A DNA stretch of 64,000 bases. Source: Verrucomicrobiota bacterium (GTDB lineage: Bacteria; Verrucomicrobiota; Verrucomicrobiia; Verrucomicrobiales; DEV007). Within the stretch, counting starts at the first letter, position 1; each line of letters begins with the position of its first letter. The notes beneath the pieces were generated by a model. That model made no database searches. It worked only from the letters and a program-made list of their open reading frames with translations, and was not told the origin of the DNA. The stretch is from the NCBI GenBank assembly GCA_963205275.1, contig CAUJIH010000011.1, positions 1 through 64,000 on the forward strand, given 5' to 3'. This document shows, piece by piece, positions 176 to 10,812 of the stretch. A program made the position numbers and the translations under genes.

Positions 176-3100
176 ATGTCGAACCATTTTTTTGACAAGC
201 CTATCCTCAACTCTCCCTACGATTATCCTTCTCGTCACTGGGAGCTGGATGATCAGGGACAGCCGACGCAAGAAGTCATCGAGTCTCGCCGCAAGTGCTC
301 GTACGTCACTCCGGTTCCTCAGCCAAAAAAGTCAAAAAAATCCTCACTAGCAGCGCAGCAGGATGACTTATTCGCAGAAAAGGTGGACGACATCATCGTC
401 GATGATCAGCTCTACGATCCCACCTCCATCGTCAACGAAGTGCGCGCAGCGGTGGATGCTTGGCGCAAGCTCCCCCACCCTCGCGACTGGGGCGTCACCC
501 CAGAAACCGCCCGCCTGCTCCAGTATTGGCGCACGCATGAGTTCACGGGCATTCGGCCCTTTTTCTGCCAAATCGAGGCCGTGGAAACAGCCATCTGGCT
601 GTCCGAAGTTGCTCGCAATTCCAGTAACAAAGCCCACAAGAAACTCTTCCAATACCTCGAAGCAGCCAATAGTCACTCCGACCTCTTCCGCCTCGCTCTC
701 AAGCTCGCCACTGGTGCGGGGAAAACCACCGTCATGGCCATGCTCATCGCCTGGCAAACGGTCAATGCCAACCACCGCCCGAACTCAAAGCACTATTCCA
801 ACGCCTTCCTCATCGTCGCGCCGGGCATCACCATCCGCGATCGCCTGCGCGTGCTGCTCCCGAACGATCCAGAAAGCTACTACTTCAATCGCGAGCTGGT
901 CCCCGCCGATATGCGCAAGGAGATCGAAAAAGCCCGCATCGTCATCACCAACTACCACGCCTTCCAGCGGCGGGAAAAAGTAAATCTGGCCACCGGAACA
1001 CGCGCACTCCTCAGAGGGCACGCTCCTTACGATCTAGACACACGGGAAAGCGAAGGCGAAATGGTGCGCCGAGTCGTCGGCTCGCTTATGGGGTGCAAAA
1101 ACATCATCGCCATCAACGACGAAGCCCACCACTGCTATCGCGACAAAAGGGGACCCGATGCCGTCGATTGGGAAGACGATCTGAAAGGCGATGACAAAAA
1201 AGTGGCTAAACAGCAAAATGAATACGCCCGGCTCTGGATCAATGGACTGGAGGCAGTCAAGCGCGTGCTCGGCATCTCCATCGTCTATGACCTCTCCGCC
1301 ACACCCTTTTACCTAGCTGGCTCCGGTTACCGCGAGGGCACCCTCTTCCCCTGGGTGATGTCCGATTTCTCGCTGATGGACGCCATCGAGTGCGGCATCG
1401 TCAAACTCCCCCGCGTCCCCATCGCCGACAACGTCCCCGACGCCGAGCACGCGATGCCCAAGCTCCGCCGGCTCTGGGACGCCATGAAGGACGCCAAGCA
1501 ATCGCTGCCAAAAATGGGACGCGGCACGAAGACGAGTTCTCACGATCCCCTCAGCCTACCTCCGCTCTTGATCACCGCCCTTGATGCCCTCTACGGCCAC
1601 TACGAGAAAACCTACCGAGCATGGAAAGACGCGGGGATTATCGAGCCACCGGTATTCATCGTCGTCTGCCAAAACACCAATATCTCCGACCTCGTCTACC
1701 GTTACATCTCCGGCTTTGAATACGAGTCGAAAAAAGACGGTACCATCCCACCACCATATCTGGGAAAATTCGAACTGTTCCGCAATTTCGATAGCAACGG
1801 CAACCGTCTCGCCCGCCCCAACGCCCTGCTCATCGACTCCGAGCAACTCGAATCTGGTGACGCATTGGATCCCGATTTCCGCCAATCTTTTGGCACAGAA
1901 ATCGAGCAATTCCGCCGCGATCTCATCCAGCGCAGCGGCAACCCACAAGCGGCTGAGAACATCGATGACGCTACCCTCCTGCGCGAGGTCATGAACACAG
2001 TTGGCAAGAAAGGTCGCCTCGGCGAGCAGATCCGCTGTGTCGTCTCCGTCTCCATGCTCACCGAGGGCTGGGATGCCAACAACGTCACCCACATCCTCGG
2101 CGTCCGTGCCTTTGGCACCCAGCTACTCTGCGAGCAAGTCGTCGGCCGGGGCCTGCGCCGCCGCTCCTACGAGCTCAATTCAGAGGGCCTCTTCGATGTC
2201 GAATACTCCGACATCCTCGGCATCCCCTTCGACTTCACGGCCAAGCCCGTCGTCGCCGGGCCCGAGCCACCGCCTCGCAGCACCCACGTACAGGCCGTCT
2301 CTCCCGAGCGCGACGACCTAGCCCTGAGCTACCCTCGCGTCATCGGCTATCGCGTCGAGCCACCGGGAAAAGACTTCACCGCCCAGTTCTCCGAGGACTC
2401 CACCCTCGTCCTCACCCCAGAAAACGTCGGTCCCACCCGCACCATCATTTCAGGCATTGCCGGGCAGACAGAGGAACTCACCGTCGAGCACCTGAAAAAT
2501 ATCCGCCCCTCCACCATCCTCCTCCGCCTCACCATGCACTTGCAGGAGACCAAGTTCCGAGACGAAAGCGGAGATACCTCCGATTTCGGATACTTCGGGG
2601 CCTTGAAACGCATCACCCGCCAGTGGCTCAATAACTACCTCAAGTGCGAGGGTGGCACCTACCCCGCCCAAGTGCTCATCCCCCAGTTCACCGATGAAGC
2701 CTGTAACCGCATCGCCAATGCCATCGTCGCCGCCAACCCGTCCCCCCAGTCGGTGCTCGCCATCCTCGATCCCTACAATCCCACGGGTTCTACCCACTTC
2801 GTCAACTTCCGCACCTCCAAAGGAACCTACCAAGCCGACCCCAAAAAATCACACATCAACTACGTCGTTCCGGACTCTGATTGGGAAACTCAATTTGCCA
2901 TGGCGGCCGAGCATCATCCGCAAGTCCTCGCCTACGCGAAAAACCAAGGACTCGGCCTCGAAGTTCCCTACCATTACAAAGGCCACGCTCACCGCTACCT
3001 TCCCGACTTCCTGCTCACAATCGACGACGGCCACGGCGCTGACGATCCGCTTCACCTCATCGTAGAAATCAAAGGCTACCGAGGCGAAAACGCCAAGGCC

Positions 3101-3301
3101 AAGGCCGATGCCATGAACACCCACTGGATTCCCGGCATCAACAACCTCAAAAAATTTGGTCGCTGGGTCTTTATCGAAATCACCCAGCCCTACACCATGG
3201 AAGAAGACCTCAGCGAGCTTATTCGCGAGGAAATGGACAAGAAACTCGCCGCATTACCTCACTCCGAAAGCGAAACCGAAATCGCCCTAGAATCAAAATG
3301 A
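176..3301 (+). CDS. Type III-like restriction enzyme, Res subunit (SF2 helicase + C-terminal PD-(D/E)xK nuclease)
   Basis: Walker A 'LATGAGKTTVMAML', DEAH-like 'INDEAHHCY', 'LSATPF', 'EGWDANNVTHILGVRAFGTQLLCEQVVGRGLRR', and C-terminal 'YLPDFLL...LHLIVEIKGY' (PD-xK-like). Followed by a DNA methyltransferase. Confidence 0.9.
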   Translation: MSNHFFDKPILNSPYDYPSRHWELDDQGQPTQEVIESRRKCSYVTPVPQPKKSKKSSLAAQQDDLFAEKVDDIIVDDQLYDPTSIVNEVRAAVDAWRKLPHPRDWGVTPETARLLQYWRTHEFTGIRPFFCQIEAVETAIWLSEVARNSSNKAHKKLFQYLEAANSHSDLFRLALKLATGAGKTTVMAMLIAWQTVNANHRPNSKHYSNAFLIVAPGITIRDRLRVLLPNDPESYYFNRELVPADMRKEIEKARIVITNYHAFQRREKVNLATGTRALLRGHAPYDLDTRESEGEMVRRVVGSLMGCKNIIAINDEAHHCYRDKRGPDAVDWEDDLKGDDKKVAKQQNEYARLWINGLEAVKRVLGISIVYDLSATPFYLAGSGYREGTLFPWVMSDFSLMDAIECGIVKLPRVPIADNVPDAEHAMPKLRRLWDAMKDAKQSLPKMGRGTKTSSHDPLSLPPLLITALDALYGHYEKTYRAWKDAGIIEPPVFIVVCQNTNISDLVYRYISGFEYESKKDGTIPPPYLGKFELFRNFDSNGNRLARPNALLIDSEQLESGDALDPDFRQSFGTEIEQFRRDLIQRSGNPQAAENIDDATLLREVMNTVGKKGRLGEQIRCVVSVSMLTEGWDANNVTHILGVRAFGTQLLCEQVVGRGLRRRSYELNSEGLFDVEYSDILGIPFDFTAKPVVAGPEPPPRSTHVQAVSPERDDLALSYPRVIGYRVEPPGKDFTAQFSEDSTLVLTPENVGPTRTIISGIAGQTEELTVEHLKNIRPSTILLRLTMHLQETKFRDESGDTSDFGYFGALKRITRQWLNNYLKCEGGTYPAQVLIPQFTDEACNRIANAIVAANPSPQSVLAILDPYNPTGSTHFVNFRTSKGTYQADPKKSHINYVVPDSDWETQFAMAAEHHPQVLAYAKNQGLGLEVPYHYKGHAHRYLPDFLLTIDDGHGADDPLHLIVEIKGYRGENAKAKADAMNTHWIPGINNLKKFGRWVFIEITQPYTMEEDLSELIREEMDKKLAALPHSESETEIALESK

Positions 3302-3314
3302 CATGCGCCGCAGG

Positions 3315-3450
3315 CTTTGGAGTGCGGTGGCCCGACACCGCTTTCCGTACAAACCCTACCATCTACCACCACCTAAAATCGCACCCTTTCCCCTCTACCG
3401 CCCAAGGCTCCGAAAAAGCGGTGTCGGGCCACCGCACTCCAAAGCGCCTC
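3315..3450. repeat. REP/BIME pair 1 (two inverted palindromic hairpins with conserved spacer)
   Basis: GCGGTG-gcccga-CACCGC at 3324-3341 and inverted GCGGTG-tcgggc-CACCGC at 3418-3435, flanked by ctttGGAGt / actccaaag. Confidence 0.85.
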
Positions 3451-3520
3451 GCGCTGAACGCGTTGTACACTATCCCTGCACTAGCACTTCATAATTCATA
3501 ATTTCCCCAATCCTTTCCCC

Positions 3521-6349
3521 ATGTCCGCTCAACAGAAAAAGACCGTCGTCACTCAAAAGCACATCGATGCTACCCGCACCAACATCCCTACGGCGGAGAT
3601 GCAGTCTGTCGTGGATGATGAGGTGAAGCAGGCGATCGAACTCGCTTACGAAAATCGTAATCCGGACCTCGACCCGCAACTCGTCTGGCGGGGGAAATAC
3701 GACGCGGATCAACTCCTCGTCCAAGCGCCACCGCTCTACATCCAAGAGAAAATCCACCCCAAGGCGCTCATTGACGATCTCCAGCGCGTCACCCGCGAGA
3801 GTAAGGAGGAGCAAGGGCTGGAAACTCCCGATCTCTTTGCCGATTTCAATGGCTTCTCCAGCGAGGCAAAGACCGCCGACTTCTACCAGCACCACGGACA
3901 CTGGACCAACCGCATGATCTTGGGCGATTCCCTGCAAGTCATGGCCAGCCTCGCCGAGCGCGAGGGCCTGCGCGGCAAAGTGCAGTGTATCTACCTCGAC
4001 CCGCCCTACGGCATCAAGTTCAACTCGAACTTCCAGTGGTCCACCACCAGCCGCGATGTCAAAGACGGCAACAAAGATCACATCACCCGCGAGCCGGAAA
4101 TGGTCAAAGCCTTCCGTGATACCTGGCGCGATGGCATCCATTCCTACCTCAGCTACCTCCGCGATCGCCTCATCGTCGCCAAGGATTTGCTTACCGAATC
4201 AGGGTCTATTTTCGTGCAGATTGGCGATGAGAATGTTCATCGAGTACGGGCTGTGATGGATGAGGTGTTTGGGGAGGAGAATTTTGTGAGTATAATCACC
4301 TATGCAAAAACAACTGGCTTTTCAGGCAATACTTTATCGTCCATTGCAGACTATATAGTATGGTACGCTAAATCTAAGGACTCTGTTAAGTATAGACAGT
4401 CATTAATTAATAAAAGTGCGCACGGAGAAGGAAAATCAAAATATAGGCCGGGTCATACAATAACTGCATTACAACTTTTCCCGTTTGATCTGAATAGAGA
4501 GGCGGTTTCAGATCAATTGACTTCGCAAGGAGCTTCTCCAAACAGCGAGCAGAAGTGGGAATTTCAAGGTAAGATTTGGAATCCTTCAACAGGACTTCAC
4601 TGGAAAACTAGATTAGAAGGGCTAGATCGTCTAGCTCTAGCAAGTCGTGTAATGCCAGAAGGGAATTCTGTTCGATATGTTCGGTTTTTTGATGATTTTT
4701 CTGTTCAACCGCGTGTTAATGTATGGATGGATATTGGTGGAATTCAGAGTCGTTCAGATCCAAAAGTCTATGTTGTACAGACTGCAACCGAAGCCATCCA
4801 ACGCTGCCTCCTCATGGCCACCGATCCCGGCGACCTCGTGCTCGCCCCACCCTGCGGCTCCGGCACCACCGCCTACGTGGCCGAGCAGTGGGGACGACGT
4901 TGGATCACCATCGACACCTCGCGCGTTTCCCTCGCGCTAGCCCGCGCCCGCCTCATGGGAGCACGCTATCCCTACTACCTCCTCGCCGACTCCCGCGAGG
5001 GCCAGTTGAAAGAAGCCGAAGTCACCCGCAGCGTCCCCCGCGACGCGCCCACCTACGGCAAGATTTCCCACGGTTTCGTCTACGAACGCGTGCCCCACAT
5101 CATGCTGCGCGACATCGCCAACAACGCGGAAATCGATGTCATCTGGGACCAATTCGAGCGACAGCTCCAGCCCCTGCGCGAAGCACTGACTGCCGAACTT
5201 CCCCAAGGCTGGCTGGCCATCTACCGCAAGGCCCAAAAATACACCGCCGAGGTGCCCGTGGAGATTGCCGAGTGGGAGGTGCCCCGCGAGCGCCCCGCCG
5301 AGTGGCCGGAATCCACCCAGGCATGGCTCGATCAATTCTGGAAACTCCGCATCGCCCGCCAGAAGGAAATCGATGCCTCCATCGCCGCCAAGTCCGAGTC
5401 CGAATACCTCTACGACAAACCCTACGAGAACAAAAGTAAAGTCCGCGTGGCTAGCCCCTTCACCGTCGAATCCGTCTCCCCCCACCGCATGCTCCACGTG
5501 GGGCCAGAGGATGAAGTGATCGATCCTTGGAAAAAGGTCAACGAAGACCCCACCGAACTCAAGCGCATGCAGGACTTCACCACCCTCATGCTGGAGAACC
5601 TACGAACCGCTGGCGTGCAGCAAGCGCACAAAGAGAATCGGCTCCATTTTGACAGCATAGATGCCTTCCCCGGCAGCGGCTACGTCTGCGCCATAGGCAC
5701 CTACACCGAGGGCGAGAGCGAGAACGCCCCCACCCGCCGCGCCGCCATCCACATCGGCCCCGAGTTCGGCACCACCAGCCGCGAAGACCTCGTGGCCGCC
5801 GCCCGCGAGGCCGGCGACTTGCAGGCCGACATACTCCTCGCCTGCGCCTTCAACTACGACGCCCACGCCACCGAGTTCGAGCGACTCGGCAAAATCCCCG
5901 TCCTCAAAGCCCGCATGAACGCTGACATGCACATGGCCACCGATCTGAAGAAGACCAAGACCGCCAACCTCTTCGTCGTCTTTGGAGAGCCGGACGTAGA
6001 AGTGGAAAAGCTGGAAGGCGATCAGCTCCGCGTCCACCTCCACGGAGTGGATGTGTTCAAGCCCCAGACCGGCGAAGTCGTCAGCAGCGAACCCGACGAC
6101 ATCGCCTGTTGGATGGTAGACACCGACTACAACGAAGAGAGCTTTTTCGTTCGCCAAGCCTACTTTCTCGGTCAGAACGATCCCTACCAATCGCTCAAGA
6201 CCACCCTAAAAGCCGAGATCAACCGCGAGGCCTGGGAAACCCTCCGCAGCACCATCAGCCGCCCCTTCCCCCGCCCCGCCACCGGGCGCATCGCCGTCAA
6301 GGTCATCAACCACCTAGGCGACGAGGTAATGAAAGTGATTGCGGTGTGA
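3521..6349 (+). CDS. Site-specific DNA methyltransferase (type III Mod-like, DPPY motif)
   Basis: 'CIYLDPPYGIKFNSNFQW' (motif IV), 'DLVLAPPCGSGTTAYVAEQWGRRWITID' (motif I region); directly downstream of Res. Confidence 0.9.
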   Translation: MSAQQKKTVVTQKHIDATRTNIPTAEMQSVVDDEVKQAIELAYENRNPDLDPQLVWRGKYDADQLLVQAPPLYIQEKIHPKALIDDLQRVTRESKEEQGLETPDLFADFNGFSSEAKTADFYQHHGHWTNRMILGDSLQVMASLAEREGLRGKVQCIYLDPPYGIKFNSNFQWSTTSRDVKDGNKDHITREPEMVKAFRDTWRDGIHSYLSYLRDRLIVAKDLLTESGSIFVQIGDENVHRVRAVMDEVFGEENFVSIITYAKTTGFSGNTLSSIADYIVWYAKSKDSVKYRQSLINKSAHGEGKSKYRPGHTITALQLFPFDLNREAVSDQLTSQGASPNSEQKWEFQGKIWNPSTGLHWKTRLEGLDRLALASRVMPEGNSVRYVRFFDDFSVQPRVNVWMDIGGIQSRSDPKVYVVQTATEAIQRCLLMATDPGDLVLAPPCGSGTTAYVAEQWGRRWITIDTSRVSLALARARLMGARYPYYLLADSREGQLKEAEVTRSVPRDAPTYGKISHGFVYERVPHIMLRDIANNAEIDVIWDQFERQLQPLREALTAELPQGWLAIYRKAQKYTAEVPVEIAEWEVPRERPAEWPESTQAWLDQFWKLRIARQKEIDASIAAKSESEYLYDKPYENKSKVRVASPFTVESVSPHRMLHVGPEDEVIDPWKKVNEDPTELKRMQDFTTLMLENLRTAGVQQAHKENRLHFDSIDAFPGSGYVCAIGTYTEGESENAPTRRAAIHIGPEFGTTSREDLVAAAREAGDLQADILLACAFNYDAHATEFERLGKIPVLKARMNADMHMATDLKKTKTANLFVVFGEPDVEVEKLEGDQLRVHLHGVDVFKPQTGEVVSSEPDDIACWMVDTDYNEESFFVRQAYFLGQNDPYQSLKTTLKAEINREAWETLRSTISRPFPRPATGRIAVKVINHLGDEVMKVIAV

Positions 6350-6390: not shown

Positions 6391-6540
6391 TGGCGCGAAG
6401 CGCTTTGGAGTGCGGTGGCCTGACACCGCTTTCCGTAAAACCCTACCATCCACCCATCACCTAAAATCGACACTTTCCCTCCATCGCACACGCTCCCCCA
6501 AAGCGGCGCTTCACGCCGCACTCCAAAGCGCTTCGCGCAC
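6391..6540. repeat. REP/BIME pair 2, immediately 3' of the RAYT gene
   Basis: Hairpins GCGGTG/CACCGC 6412-6429 and GCGGCG/CGCCGC 6503-6519. A perfect 23-bp inverted repeat joins 6393-6415 (gcgcgaagcgctttggagtgcgg) and 6516-6538. Confidence 0.9.
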
Positions 6541-6543
6541 ACA

Positions 6544-7098
6544 CTACCAGTCGCTAGCCACCTCGAAGTTATCTTTTACAGCAAGCTGATCCACCTTAAA
6601 ACTCTCAATCGTCTTTGCAGTCGCTGTATCCGCCGTACTTTCAAACCACCCTGCCGAGCACCACGGATACTGGTTCGCCACCGGAACCAACCCATGCCGA
6701 ACGGCATTATGATGCACATACTTCAGCCTTGCGTAGTAACTCTTCTGAAAGGTCAATCGAGTCTCCCAATAGTTATGCCACACTTTACGGCCCGGAGTCG
6801 CGTCCAATCGATTCACCCAGATGGCCATTTTTGTATGGAGGATCTGTAGCATTTCACTCAGATTTTCCGCTGTTTTCGGCGATTGCCCGACAAAATGATA
6901 ATGATTCGAAAACACCGCCCAAGCCTCAAGCTGCCAGTCAAAGTCACGTGCCACCTTGAGCAATCCTCGCTGGAGTACCGCTAATCGCTGTGCTCCTCGG
7001 AAGAAATGTTCATGTTGATAGCTTGCCGCCGTCACAATATACACTCCATTTTCTCCTATTTGATGGAGTGGTGCATGCGGCCACGGAGTATCGCTCAT
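6544..7098 (-). CDS. REP-associated tyrosine transposase (RAYT, IS200/IS605-like Y1 HUH family)
   Basis: HUH-like 'NHYHFV', 'KMAIWVNRLD', 'VWHNYWETRLT', catalytic-region 'LKYVHHNAVRHGLV', 'YPWCSAGWF'. Flanked on both sides by REP palindromes. Confidence 0.88.
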   Translation of the reverse strand: MSDTPWPHAPLHQIGENGVYIVTAASYQHEHFFRGAQRLAVLQRGLLKVARDFDWQLEAWAVFSNHYHFVGQSPKTAENLSEMLQILHTKMAIWVNRLDATPGRKVWHNYWETRLTFQKSYYARLKYVHHNAVRHGLVPVANQYPWCSAGWFESTADTATAKTIESFKVDQLAVKDNFEVASDW

Positions 7099-7170
7099 TA
7101 CCCACGAGTCTCCCTAAATTACGAGTGATCGGTCAAGGAGATAGTGTCCTTATTTTTAGGATATGCGCAC

Positions 7171-7795
7171 GATACCCTCGGCGCGAAGCTGCATTACCAA
7201 TCAAACATTCCCGTCTACCGCCCAAGCCTCCAAAAAAGCGGCGCGAAGCGCTTTGGAGTGCGGTGGCCCGACACCGCTTTCCGTAAAACCCTACCATCCA
7301 CCCATTACCCAAAATCGCACACTTTCCCCTCTACCGCCATCCCCCCCCCAAAGCGGCGCTTTACGCCGCACTCCAAAGCCTGCGGCCCATGTACAGTGCG
7401 GGATACCCTCGGTGCGAAGCTGCATTACCAATCAAGCATTCCCCTCTACCGCCCGAGCCTCCAAAAAAGCGGCGCGAAGCGCTTTGGAGTGCGGTGGCCC
7501 GACACCGCTTTCCGTAAAAACCCCACCATCTACCCGTCACCCAAAATCGCACACATTCCCTCCATCGCACACCCTCCCCCAAAGCGGCGCTTCACGCCGC
7601 ACTCCAAAGCCTGCGGCGCATGTACAGTGCACGATACCCTCGGCGCGAAGCTGCATCACCGATCAAGCATTTCCCTCTACCGCCCGAGCCTCCGAAAAAG
7701 CGGCGCGAAGCGCTTTGGAGTGCGGTGGCCCGACACCGCTTTCCGTAAAAACCCCACCATCTACCCACCACCAATAACGCACACATTACACATGG
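7171..7795. repeat. Tandem array of about 231-bp REP/BIME units (two full units plus a partial third)
   Basis: 'gataccctcgg' recurs at 7171, 7402 and 7633 (spacing 231, 231). Units contain hairpins at 7260-7277, 7353-7369, 7491-7508, 7584-7600, 7732-7749. Confidence 0.92.
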
Positions 7796-7869: not shown

Positions 7870-9939
7870 ATGCTCCACTTCCGTCTCGCTGATACCTTTT
7901 CTGACAGTCTCACCAAACTCACTGCCCAAGAGCAGAAGGCGGTGAAGATGACGGTGTTTGACATGCAGATGGATCACGCTCACCCGTCGCTCCAATTTCA
8001 TCGAGTAGATAAGGCGAAGGATGCGAATTTCTGGTCGGCTCGTGCCAGCGGGGATATACGCATCATTGTGCACAAAACAGCCGCTGACTTTCTCGTCTGC
8101 TACGTGGATCATCACGATGCCGCGTATGCCTGGGCCATGAAGCGCAAAATCGTCCAACATCCCAAAACCGGGGCGATGCAGCTGGTGGAGTTAGAACACA
8201 AGCTCATTGAAATTCCACAATACAAACAGGTATCTGTAGATGCGCCCACAGAGCAGGCATCGGCCAAAAGCCTAAACTCTCTATTTGCAGATCATTCGGA
8301 TGACGAATTGCTTTCCTACGGAGTCCCAGAAGAATGGCTGGATGAGGTCAAGCAAGCCACGGAGGAAAGCTTGCTGGATCTGGCCGAGCGTCTGCCGGGG
8401 GAAGCAGCGGAGGCCTTACTGGAACTCGCGGTTGGAAATACGCCGGAACTACCACCGACGCCGGAGACTGGTGCCGCTACAGGCTTCGACCACGCAGACT
8501 CGCAACGTCGCTTCCGTCTCATTACGGACCATGATGAGCTAGAGATCGCACTGGAATACCCGTGGGAGAAGTGGACAATCTTTCTCCATCCCTCACAAAA
8601 GTCGGCAGTGGAAGCGAATTACCACGGTCCGGCACGAGTGACTGGCTCCGCTGGCACAGGAAAGACAATCGTTGCCTTGCACCGTGCCGCTTTCCTCGCC
8701 AAGGCGAATCCTCAAGCTCGTATTCTGCTCACCACCTTTTCCCAAGCATTGGCCGAATTGCTGGAAATCAAACTGGATCGATTGGTAGGCGCGGAGACGG
8801 AGTTGAGAAAGCGCATCGAACTCCGCTCGCTGCCCAAGCTGGTGCAGGAGTGGACAGGCGACTTTACAGAACCGAGTGCCGAGGAACTAGCCGAATGGAC
8901 GGCTGAAGCCATGGAATCCACGCCTGATCAATCATTTCCCCCGCGATTTGTGCGCGATGAATGGGCGCACATCTTCGATGCCTATCAGATCCATGATCTC
9001 GATGACTATCTCGCAGTGTCTCGTCATGGACGTGGCACTCGACTGGTCGCTTCTCAGCGAAAAACCATGTTTGATCTCATGGAGAACTTGCGACAGCGCA
9101 TCCACGCTGCTGGCAAGCGAACTCTGGCGGAAGTCTATCATCAGCTAGGCGAGGAGCACGCCCAGAGCTACGATCACGTCATCGTGGACGAGGCTCAAGA
9201 CCTCAGTGTCCCGGCTCTAAAATTCCTCTCTGCCATCACCAAAGAGGGAGACAACAATCTGTATTTTGCAGGAGATACTGGGCAGCGTATTTTTCAACTT
9301 CCTTTCTCTTGGAGCAGCCTAGGGATCAACATCCGTGGTCGATCTCGCACTCTGCGAGTCAATTACCGCACCAGCCACCAGATCCGCCAACGTGCCGATA
9401 CCCTGCTAGATGAGACGATCATCGACGGCGATGGCATCGAGGAATCTCGTCGTGGTATCGTGTCTGTCTTCAACGGCCCACCGCCCCAATGCTTCATTGC
9501 AGAGTCACAGGAGGAAGAAATCGAGCACGTAGTCGAGCATTTGTACGATCTGCTCGAACGTGGCTTTGCTCCTGAGCAAGTCGGCATCTTCGTGCGCAGC
9601 CGTGCGCAAATGGCACGCGCCCGTGCCACTCTGAAGCAAGCTGGTATGAAGTGGGACGAGCTAGAAAACACCCGCCATCCCAGCACCGACCGCATTTCTC
9701 TCAGCACTATGCACCTCGCCAAAGGTCTGGAATACCGCGCCGTCATCATCATGGCCTGTGACGACGAAATTATCCCTCTGGAAGAGCGCATTGAAGCCGC
9801 TCAAGATCAAGATGCCTTGGAAGAAGTGTATAACACCGAGCGCCATCTCCTCTACGTCGCCTGCACCCGTGCCCGCGAAGAACTGCTCATCACTGCCACA
9901 GATCCCGAGTCAGAGTTCCTTGCCGATAGCTTTGTCTAG
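7870..9939 (+). CDS. RelE/ParE-like N-terminal domain fused to UvrD/Rep-like SF1 helicase
   Basis: N-term 'FWSARASGDIRIIVHKTAADFLVCYVDHHDAAYAWAMKRKI' resembles the RelE/YoeB toxin core. Helicase motifs: 'GSAGTGKTIVALHRA', 'HVIVDEAQDLSV', 'NYRTSHQIRQRAD', 'STMHLAKGLEYRAVII', 'LLYVACTRAREELLI'. Confidence 0.85.
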   Translation: MLHFRLADTFSDSLTKLTAQEQKAVKMTVFDMQMDHAHPSLQFHRVDKAKDANFWSARASGDIRIIVHKTAADFLVCYVDHHDAAYAWAMKRKIVQHPKTGAMQLVELEHKLIEIPQYKQVSVDAPTEQASAKSLNSLFADHSDDELLSYGVPEEWLDEVKQATEESLLDLAERLPGEAAEALLELAVGNTPELPPTPETGAATGFDHADSQRRFRLITDHDELEIALEYPWEKWTIFLHPSQKSAVEANYHGPARVTGSAGTGKTIVALHRAAFLAKANPQARILLTTFSQALAELLEIKLDRLVGAETELRKRIELRSLPKLVQEWTGDFTEPSAEELAEWTAEAMESTPDQSFPPRFVRDEWAHIFDAYQIHDLDDYLAVSRHGRGTRLVASQRKTMFDLMENLRQRIHAAGKRTLAEVYHQLGEEHAQSYDHVIVDEAQDLSVPALKFLSAITKEGDNNLYFAGDTGQRIFQLPFSWSSLGINIRGRSRTLRVNYRTSHQIRQRADTLLDETIIDGDGIEESRRGIVSVFNGPPPQCFIAESQEEEIEHVVEHLYDLLERGFAPEQVGIFVRSRAQMARARATLKQAGMKWDELENTRHPSTDRISLSTMHLAKGLEYRAVIIMACDDEIIPLEERIEAAQDQDALEEVYNTERHLLYVACTRAREELLITATDPESEFLADSFV

Positions 9940-9970
9940 TCCGGACCCGCGATCATCCCGGCGCCGCAGG

Positions 9971-9999
9971 CTTTGGAGTGCGGCGTGAAGCGCCGCTTT
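9971..9999. repeat. Solitary REP palindrome
   Basis: ctttggagt-GCGGCG-tgaag-CGCCGC-ttt (stem 9980-9985 / 9991-9996); same consensus as the upstream BIMEs. Confidence 0.8.
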
Positions 10000-10102: not shown

Positions 10103-10812
10103 ATGTCCGTGTACCGTCAAGAAATAATCGCAGCAGAGTTGAAACAGGTTCCCGTGCTTCATGCGGACGAAACGGGCGTGCGTTGCTGCAAAAAGACTCA
10201 TTGGCTACACGTTGTCGCACCGAGCACCTGACCCATGACAGCGACAGCGACAAGCGCGGACTGGAAGGCATGAGCGACGGCGGAGTGTTGCCGGAATATC
10301 GTAACAAACTCATGCACGACTTTTGGGGAGCCTACGACAAGCTCGAACACTGCGAACACCTGCGCTGCAATGCGCACCTGCTGAGAGAGCTCAAATCCTG
10401 CGCCGAAGACGGACACCAATGGGCGGCAGAATTGTCGGGTGCTCTGATCACGATGAAGCAGGCGCGGTACCAAGCGTTGCGTGAGGAGAAGCCGCCGGGG
10501 AAGAAGGGGCGCGTCAAGCAGAGCCGTGAGCACAACCTGCTCAAGCGCCTGAAGAAGAAGAAGGCTGAGATCATTGCCTTTCTGCACGATCCGAGCCTTC
10601 CCTTCGACAACAATCAAGCGGAGCGTGATTTGCGGATGATGAAAGTGCCGCAAAAAGTCTCTGGTTGCTTTCGCAGCGAAGACGGGGCCAAGATGTTCTG
10701 CGTCATCCGCAGCTACCTGTCCACGGCACGCAAACAAGGCCTGAGCATTATCGAGGCCATCCGCAACGCCCTGTGCGGATACCCCCAGCCCTTTGCTGTG
10801 GGTGCTGAATAG
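10103..10812 (+). pseudogene. IS66-family transposase (TnpC) remnant, N-terminally truncated and frameshifted
   Basis: Frame 2 reads 'VPVLHADETGVRCCKKTHWLHVVAPST*' (10103-10231). Continuation lies in frame 1: 'LTHDSDSDKRGLEGMSDGGVLPEYRNKLMHDFWGAYDKLEHCEHLRCNAHLLREL...LPFDNNQAERDLRMMKVPQKVSGCFRSEDGA'. Confidence 0.88.

Follow-up and report, generated by a model that had tools for sequence, protein, structure and literature searches.

Sequence analysis of a mainly verrucomicrobial RAYT clade with GGAG or GGAC guides and, in part of the clade, a terminal DNA mini-hairpin

Introduction

To our knowledge, the choice and the cutting of REPs by a REP-associated tyrosine transposase (RAYT) have been worked out in molecular detail for just a few systems with a GTAG guide, those of E. 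coli, Stenotrophomonas and Marinomonas. E. coli TnpA_REP binds the REP as a single strand but does not bind the complementary strand; it depends on the guide, and its cleavage occurs at a CT 5´ or 3´ of the REP (PMC8266576). The published guide of REPs is GT[A/G]G (PMC3686654, PMC6006769), with GYAG or GYRG variants in some families (PMC3733652); the original prediction for the locus described here, which took a GTAG/GGAG-type tetranucleotide to be established, was mistaken on this point.

Here, we describe a RAYT and its REPs found in a 64,000-nt stretch of DNA from a Verrucomicrobiota bacterium, referred to as the window. By its sequence, the RAYT is placed in a clade, mainly from Verrucomicrobiota, with a distinctive REP layout: a mini-hairpin with a C-GNA-G or C-GNNA-G loop, a T N T linker, GGAG or GGAC as the guide, a T, the REP stem-loop and CTTT. 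The GGAG and GGAC guides are a departure from the published GT[A/G]G. The RAYT, the REPs and the inverted REP pairs (REPINs) are all of known kinds, and the new elements are the guide variation, the mini-hairpin end and the coupling of RAYT residue 25 to the guide. We did not find GGAG/GGAC guides, a terminal GNA/GNNA mini-hairpin or the residue-25 coupling in the open-licence literature searched.

Results

An intact RAYT gene bracketed by inverted REP pairs

The window protein is a RAYT by sequence and fold, with a family match just under the curated cut-off. Its gene is an intact ORF (Table 1), and the motifs HYH (residues 66-68) and YVHHN (residues 127-131) include H66, Y67, H68, Y127 and N131, all invariant in an alignment of 56 RAYT relatives. 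The NCBIfam model REP_Tyr_transpos matched the protein with 75.2 bits (E=4.7e-21; the family cut-off is 80) and matched all 56 relatives at E<0.001, and the match to Pfam Y1_Tnp was weak. The structure of E. coli TnpA_REP (PDB 4er8) was found by sequence with E=2e-6 for the single sequence and 1.1e-8 for a profile. An AlphaFold2 model (pLDDT 83, pTM 0.82) compared to the PDB with Foldseek again gave 4er8 as the top match (E=3e-8), with IS200/IS605 transposases ranking next. The Y---NP signature is absent from the window RAYT, which has YVHHNA, and relatives carry either NA or NP. The genome has one RAYT of this type, with a Y---N motif, rather than the multiple copies and the Y---Q motif of IS200/IS605 elements. 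The RAYT is probably a domesticated, single-copy Y1/HUH single-strand transposase. We also observed a second, remote RAYT in the genome (28% identity; L005, G000:C56, 6141-7500), which adjoins a group II intron-type reverse transcriptase and whose flanks carry a distinct palindrome family, GCCRACG-NNNN-CGTYGGC, with 30 sites in the genome.

Table 1. Features of the RAYT locus and its surroundings (window coordinates)
Feature	Position	Strand	Remarks
Type III res gene	176-3301
REP type A	3305-3344	+	between type III res and mod genes; mini-hairpin GCC-GCA-GGC
REP type A	3415-3454	minus	partner of the preceding REP; mini-hairpin loop GAG
Type III mod gene	3521-6349
REP type A	6393-6432	+	mini-hairpin GCGC-GAA-GCGC, TTT, guide GGAG, T, stem GCGGTG/CACCGC, CTTT
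REP type B	6500-6538	minus	mini-hairpin GCGC-GAA-GCGC, TTT, GGAG, T, stem GCGGCG/CGCCGC, CTTT
RAYT gene	6544-7098	minus	184 aa, ATG start; intact ORF
Tandem repeat	7096-7777		three copies of a 231-bp unit holding the upstream REPIN array; first copy diverged (67%)
REP type A	7241-7280	+	upstream array
REP type B	7350-7388	minus	mini-hairpin GCC-GCA-GGC
REP type A	7472-7511	+
REP type B	7581-7619	minus	mini-hairpin GCC-GCA-GGC
REP type A	7703-7742	+	end of array; no partner REP after it
UvrD-like helicase gene	7870-9939
REP type B	9961-9999	+	lone REP, after UvrD-like helicase gene

The RAYT lies between the mod gene and the UvrD-like helicase gene, with REP pairs on both sides, in the gaps between the genes. 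That a RAYT is bracketed here by putative REP/BIME substrates had been predicted, and both the ORF and the GGAG-preceded inverted repeats were found in the expected places; the mini-hairpin upstream of the guide, the variation of the guide and the protein partner of the guide had been overlooked. On the 3´ side of the gene, two REPs form a REPIN. The predicted BIME near the stop codon is present, its first base lying 5 nt, rather than 3-4 nt, past the stop codon. Five more REPs are upstream of the RAYT start. Two sub-types, A (GGAGT-GCGGTG-GCCYGA-CACCGC-TTT) and B (GGAGT-GCGGCG-TGAAG-CGCCGC-TTT), recur in the window with alternating orientation, and all of the REP copies in the window are intergenic. 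Compensatory changes were seen at two pairs of the REP stem (U-A in 12 and C-G in 9 sequences; one G-C to A-U), while none of the 126 cells for 21 distinct REP copies held a broken pair. Beyond the final REP of the island, at 10183-10812, is an IS66-family transposase gene that appears to be a fragment (positions 122-283 of a 284-position profile).

REPs are dispersed in the genome and largely follow the RAYT

The 15-mer CTTTGGAGTGCGGYG occurs exactly 14 times in the 4.08 Mb genome, compared to 0 occurrences of a reversed control pattern, which bears out the predicted REP family as going beyond chance. With 10 of the 14 exact occurrences in the window, this count hinted that the REPs are confined to the RAYT locus. 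That reading was overturned by additional sites with the linker variants TCT, TGT, TAT and CTT in an otherwise unchanged layout and by a REP covariance model, which gave 34 matches at E<1e-5 on ten contigs (C11, C15, C20, C21, C45, C46, C47, C66, C86 and C89); the original prediction had called for a genome-wide count, naming confinement to the locus as the outcome that would speak against it. Ten of the 34 REPs are within the first 10 kb of the window, and several REPs of this genome adjoin defence genes. The family has the palindromic stem, the extragenic location and the dispersal of canonical REPs, with 34 copies, below the >100 usual for REPs, and it lacks the canonical 5´ GT[A/G]G tetranucleotide in the window genome, where the guide is GGAG. 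As expected for REPINs, inverted REPs are dispersed at a short, near-constant spacing, which is ~117 nt here, 141 nt in genome G299 and 99-111 nt in genome G129.

Within the genus, the covariance model gave 35, 21 and 6 matches in the three RAYT-bearing genomes tested (the counts of 21 for G004 and 6 for G006 were taken at E<0.1) and 0-2 matches in eight of the nine genomes without a RAYT. The exception is G027, with five REP-like matches although no RAYT was detected there. Thus, REPs largely follow RAYT presence within the genus. Among 289 genomes, 35 of which carry a RAYT, a related motif was multi-copy (7-36) only in G299, G048, G051 and G041, all RAYT carriers, and was present 0-1 times in every other genome. 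The one-contig, 4.9 Mb genome G299 has one RAYT of the window family, ~20 dispersed REPIN pairs and 59 matches to the core motif (14 for the control).

The guide varies among related RAYT loci

A profile scan of named genomes returned 349 RAYT relatives. The best 80 of these, at 59-69% identity, are mostly from Verrucomicrobiota (64 of 80 by named host), with some from Lentisphaerota, Acidobacteriota, Planctomycetota and other bins. Approximately 125 RAYT loci, including loci beyond the named-genome set, were examined, and REPs with the core [guide]-TGC-stem-GCTTT flank the RAYT at almost every one. Among these REPs, 206 have GGAG and 106 have GGAC as the guide, the latter number including some loop artefacts in mixed loci. 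GGAG and GGAC appeared together in one locus in 14 cases, in part because GGACT is the complement of AGTCC in REP loops, and guide calls were redone with removal of overlaps. We also noted rare guides within the RAYT clade, GTAG (L087), TGAG (L022), TGAC (L225) and GGCG (L223), which will be useful for mapping the residues that read guide bases 1-3.

A mini-hairpin of a stable loop class precedes the guide at about half of the loci

A second hairpin with a C-GNA-G or C-GNNA-G loop is located 3-4 nt upstream of the guide. At 36 of the 65 loci first scored, it is found in nearly every REP, and at the other 29 it is found in none. The loops seen were GAA, GCA, GGA and GTA as well as GCCA, GGCA, GACA, GGTA and GATA; in the window genome, the mini-hairpins before GGAG REPs are GCGC-GAA-GCGC or GCC-GCA-GGC. 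A first set contained 77 GNA/GNNA hairpins compared to 2.5 in within-sequence shuffles (maximum 8). Stems of at least 3 bp were present in 155 of 298 upstream sequences, when 83 were expected from swapping 5´ halves between REPs (maximum 99 in 300 swaps), and a free-loop search, for which no loop class was presumed, still found GNA/GNNA loops in 121 of these 155 stems. Arms other than GCG were paired in 42 cases, with 13 expected (maximum 24 of 500). For a type B REP alone, the minimum-energy DNA fold pairs bases of the mini-hairpin with the REP arm, and the two-hairpin fold is thus not the predicted optimum for every copy with the folding parameters used.

Individual loci tend to have the mini-hairpin either in nearly all of their REPs or in none, and this pattern clusters on the RAYT tree; both observations argue for the mini-hairpin being a property of the RAYT-REP pair. 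The GNA loop is found on only one strand of each end, the strand with the REP in its recognisable orientation; this fits strand-specific recognition. The apex of the REP itself holds a mini-hairpin more often where the outer one is missing (68/144) than where it is present (23/182). GCGAAGC or GCGCAGC was seen within the REP apex at loci without an outer mini-hairpin, for example L045, L077, L093 and L155. GNA/GNNA DNA mini-hairpins were previously known to us only from DNA chemistry and aptamer engineering. Those with at least two G-C pairs are extraordinarily stable and nuclease-resistant, and the melting temperature of GCGAAGC is 78 °C (PMC4686876). In aptamer engineering, a sequence identical to the consensus CGCGAAGCG is added to confer stability (PMC4686876).

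The mini-hairpin coincides with the outer edge of the dispersed unit

Aligned on the guide, the dispersed copies in G004 (18 copies) and G129 (21 copies), both without a mini-hairpin, gain information content abruptly at position -3. For the copies with a mini-hairpin in this genome (26 copies), in G299 (39) and in G048 and G041 together (18), information starts at -13/-14, which is the 5´ base of the mini-hairpin stem. This boundary indicates that the mini-hairpin is carried with the unit as its outer end; judged from the aligned copies, it is the outer edge of what they have in common. The unit may be larger in G299, where a weak, variable GGR..YCC palindrome lies outside the mini-hairpin at -34 to -18 from the guide (L124-L135, L167-L172; best stem 2.6 bp compared to 1.9 bp in shuffles).

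RAYT residue 25 covaries with the fourth guide base

Among RAYT columns compared to guide base 4, residue 25 was clearly the top column, with a mutual information of 0.59 (95% of the shuffled maximum, 0.32). Using the cleaned guide calls, Gly or Ala is found at this position in 78 of 83 loci with a G-guide, and Ser or Arg in 25 of 30 loci with a C-guide (Fisher 2e-15), such that the rule is kept in 103 of 113 loci and broken in 10. For loci fetched after the column had been found, it held for 27/27 G-guides and 3/4 C-guides, with Arg rather than Ser as the C-guide residue. Independent contrasts on supported branches gave 3.4 of 5 concordant and 0 discordant cases, too few to be significant alone. 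We therefore simulated the evolution of residue 25 on a tree built without the residue-25 column; the observed phi of 0.77 compares to a maximum of 0.41 in 5000 simulations. In the window RAYT, residue 25 is Ala and is positioned in strand beta-1 of the AlphaFold2 model, aligned with N19 of the 4er8 chain; in the E. coli TnpA_REP complex, beta-1 and the surroundings of beta-4 are reported to contact GTAG (PMC8266576). The published guide-contact positions, here residues 108, 112, 113 and 116, gave no signal for GGAG compared to GGAC. We also considered whether guide base 4 changes together with the 3´ CTTT as the cleavage site, as in the IS608/TnpA_Mb guide model, and found the CTTT tail to be alike for GGAG and GGAC, which gives this idea no support.

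Presence of the mini-hairpin was coupled to RAYT residue 163 above the phylogenetic null (1 of 266). Residues 157, 160 and 166 were also high, giving every third residue in the region of the C-terminal helix (158-166 in the AlphaFold2 model). We regard the coupling of this helix to the mini-hairpin as suggestive only. In their spacing, the columns 82, 86, 89 and 93 and the columns 157, 160, 163 and 166 resemble the faces of two helices, and only 163 and 89 among these mini-hairpin-coupled columns exceed the 95% phylogenetic null.

Discussion

The explanation that we favour, and consider probable, is a RAYT-REPIN system in which the transposase recognises and disperses REP doublets in trans. 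The sequences document the anatomy of the ends, the guide usage, the unit boundary, the residue-25 coupling, the genome-wide dispersal and the co-occurrence with the RAYT; we infer binding, the position of cleavage, mobility and contact of the protein with the mini-hairpin. When a REPIN becomes single-stranded, for example in the lagging-strand template, each REP would fold in a strand-specific manner. By homology to the E. coli enzyme, the RAYT most likely acts on such single-stranded REPINs in trans; it would bind the REP stem and read the guide, whose fourth base would be specified in part by residue 25 of beta-1. The T N T linker and the guide would be held single-stranded between the two hairpins, and in systems such as this one, the RAYT could use the terminal mini-hairpin as the outer boundary of the unit, perhaps via the C-terminal helix, such that the mini-hairpin stays with the unit when it is cleaved and rejoined. 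These features suggest that a two-hairpin end is used by the transposase in part of the clade. More tentatively, and with somewhat less than even confidence, we propose that the C-terminal helix reads the mini-hairpin as a second element for recognition or for the boundary, that the cut site has thereby shifted ~10 nt outward, and that a residue-25 code sets guide base 4. Counting against the favoured explanation are the concentration of REPs near the RAYT and near defence genes in the window genome, a copy number of 34 that is low for a REP family, and the limitation of the extra-stable GNA loop to one strand per end. The outer palindrome in G299, the ten loci that break the residue-25 rule, the small number of supported independent contrasts and the REP-like matches of G027 weigh on the same side.

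The clustering raises an alternative, that the REPs and an inactive RAYT are passive passengers of a type III restriction island, gained horizontally from a donor rich in REPs, and that the dispersal reflects several island acquisitions. Ten of the 34 REPs are indeed found between res, mod, the RAYT and the UvrD-like helicase gene within 7 kb of the window, the REP pair of C46 is located after an MmeI-like type IIG gene, and that of C45 adjoins a Fic_N gene fragment. The window RAYT is also just 54-57% identical to the RAYTs of G004 and G006 in the same genus, whose REPs are without a mini-hairpin. However, REPs are also present on C15, C20, C21, C47, C66, C86 and C89, with at least three sub-types, decayed arrays and different spacers, and the RAYT gene has an intact ORF that retains every conserved catalytic residue. 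We therefore consider passive arrival improbable. It is the main rival for the clustering of the REPs, and not for the family-wide patterns. A movement of the RAYT together with its flanking REPs as an IS-like unit (a REPtron with REP ends), leaving dispersed REPINs as remnants of internal deletion, would account for the RAYTs of several relatives that are bracketed by one inverted REP per side (L019, L020). We regard this as very unlikely given one RAYT copy compared to 34 REPs here and to the 59 core-motif matches (control 14) in G299, near-constant spacings of dispersed REPINs (~117, 141 and 100-111 nt), and the absence of RAYT remnants from the dispersed REPINs inspected.

Another alternative concerns the mini-hairpin, which might be no part of the transposase substrate and might instead be a conserved duplex-DNA or RNA element, such as a protein site, an mRNA-stabilising hairpin or a terminator, that hitch-hikes with the REP. 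REPs of other bacteria are described in the literature as binding host proteins and affecting mRNA, and many copies of the C-GNA-G class have the identical sequence CGCGAAGCG. Yet loop lengths of 3 and 4 alternate with only the first G and the last A fixed, the arms vary with compensation, and many of the loops (GCCA, GACA, GGCA and GGTA) are not RNA GNRA loops; together, this variation points to single-stranded DNA. The nearly all-or-none presence per RAYT locus and the coupling to residue 163, with 157, 160 and 166 also high, likewise speak for a link to the transposase, and we think it unlikely that the mini-hairpin is a hitch-hiking element.

If the more tentative proposal of a two-hairpin substrate and a residue-25 code is true, extraordinarily stable DNA mini-hairpins would have a natural use, and an HUH single-strand transposase would have a switchable specificity determinant. 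Within this clade, the guide (GGAG, GGAC, GTAG, TGAG, TGAC) and the presence of the mini-hairpin switch many times on one tree, a natural series that comes with candidate protein residues and makes REP recognition a directly testable code. The clade also suggests a natural role for GNA/GNNA DNA mini-hairpins.

Among known systems, IS200/IS605 TnpA shares HUH/Y1 catalysis, assigned here by homology, and the recognition of a hairpin and a guide, proposed here. Those transposases belong to multi-copy insertion sequences with a Y---Q motif, whereas the window RAYT is present in one copy with no IS ends seen. The REPINs of Pseudomonas and Stenotrophomonas (PMC3116915, PMC3686654) similarly consist of two inverted REPs at short spacing, dispersed, with one RAYT per REP class, but the REPs start at the GT[A/G]G guide, have no described mini-hairpin and are usually present in far more copies. 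The GTAG repeats of Opitutus terrae (PMC3733652) are also a verrucomicrobial REP family, though with a GTAG/GTGG tag. TnpAY1 subclass 2.8 (Quentin 2018, PMC6006769) is alike in its NHYH and W[YH] motifs, its length of ~199 aa and its association with REPs; it has been described only from Cyanobacteria, with YIHYNP and canonical GT[AG]G REPs, as opposed to YVHHNA in the window RAYT. Closest among solved structures, both by sequence and by fold, is E. coli TnpA_REP (RAYT; Bertels group 2, TnpAY1 subclass 2.2; PDB 4er8), which has the same Y1/HUH fold, a single gene bracketed by inverted REP pairs and a guide tetranucleotide 5´ of the hairpin. In contrast to its GTAG, the window clade has GGAG or GGAC, a perfect stem and a terminal GNA/GNNA mini-hairpin, and in the REPs of the window, one base separates the guide from the hairpin. 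The E. coli guide contacts Q95, H101 and R104 (PMC6006769) align here to H/F108, T113 and T116, and these differing residues are consistent with a different guide.
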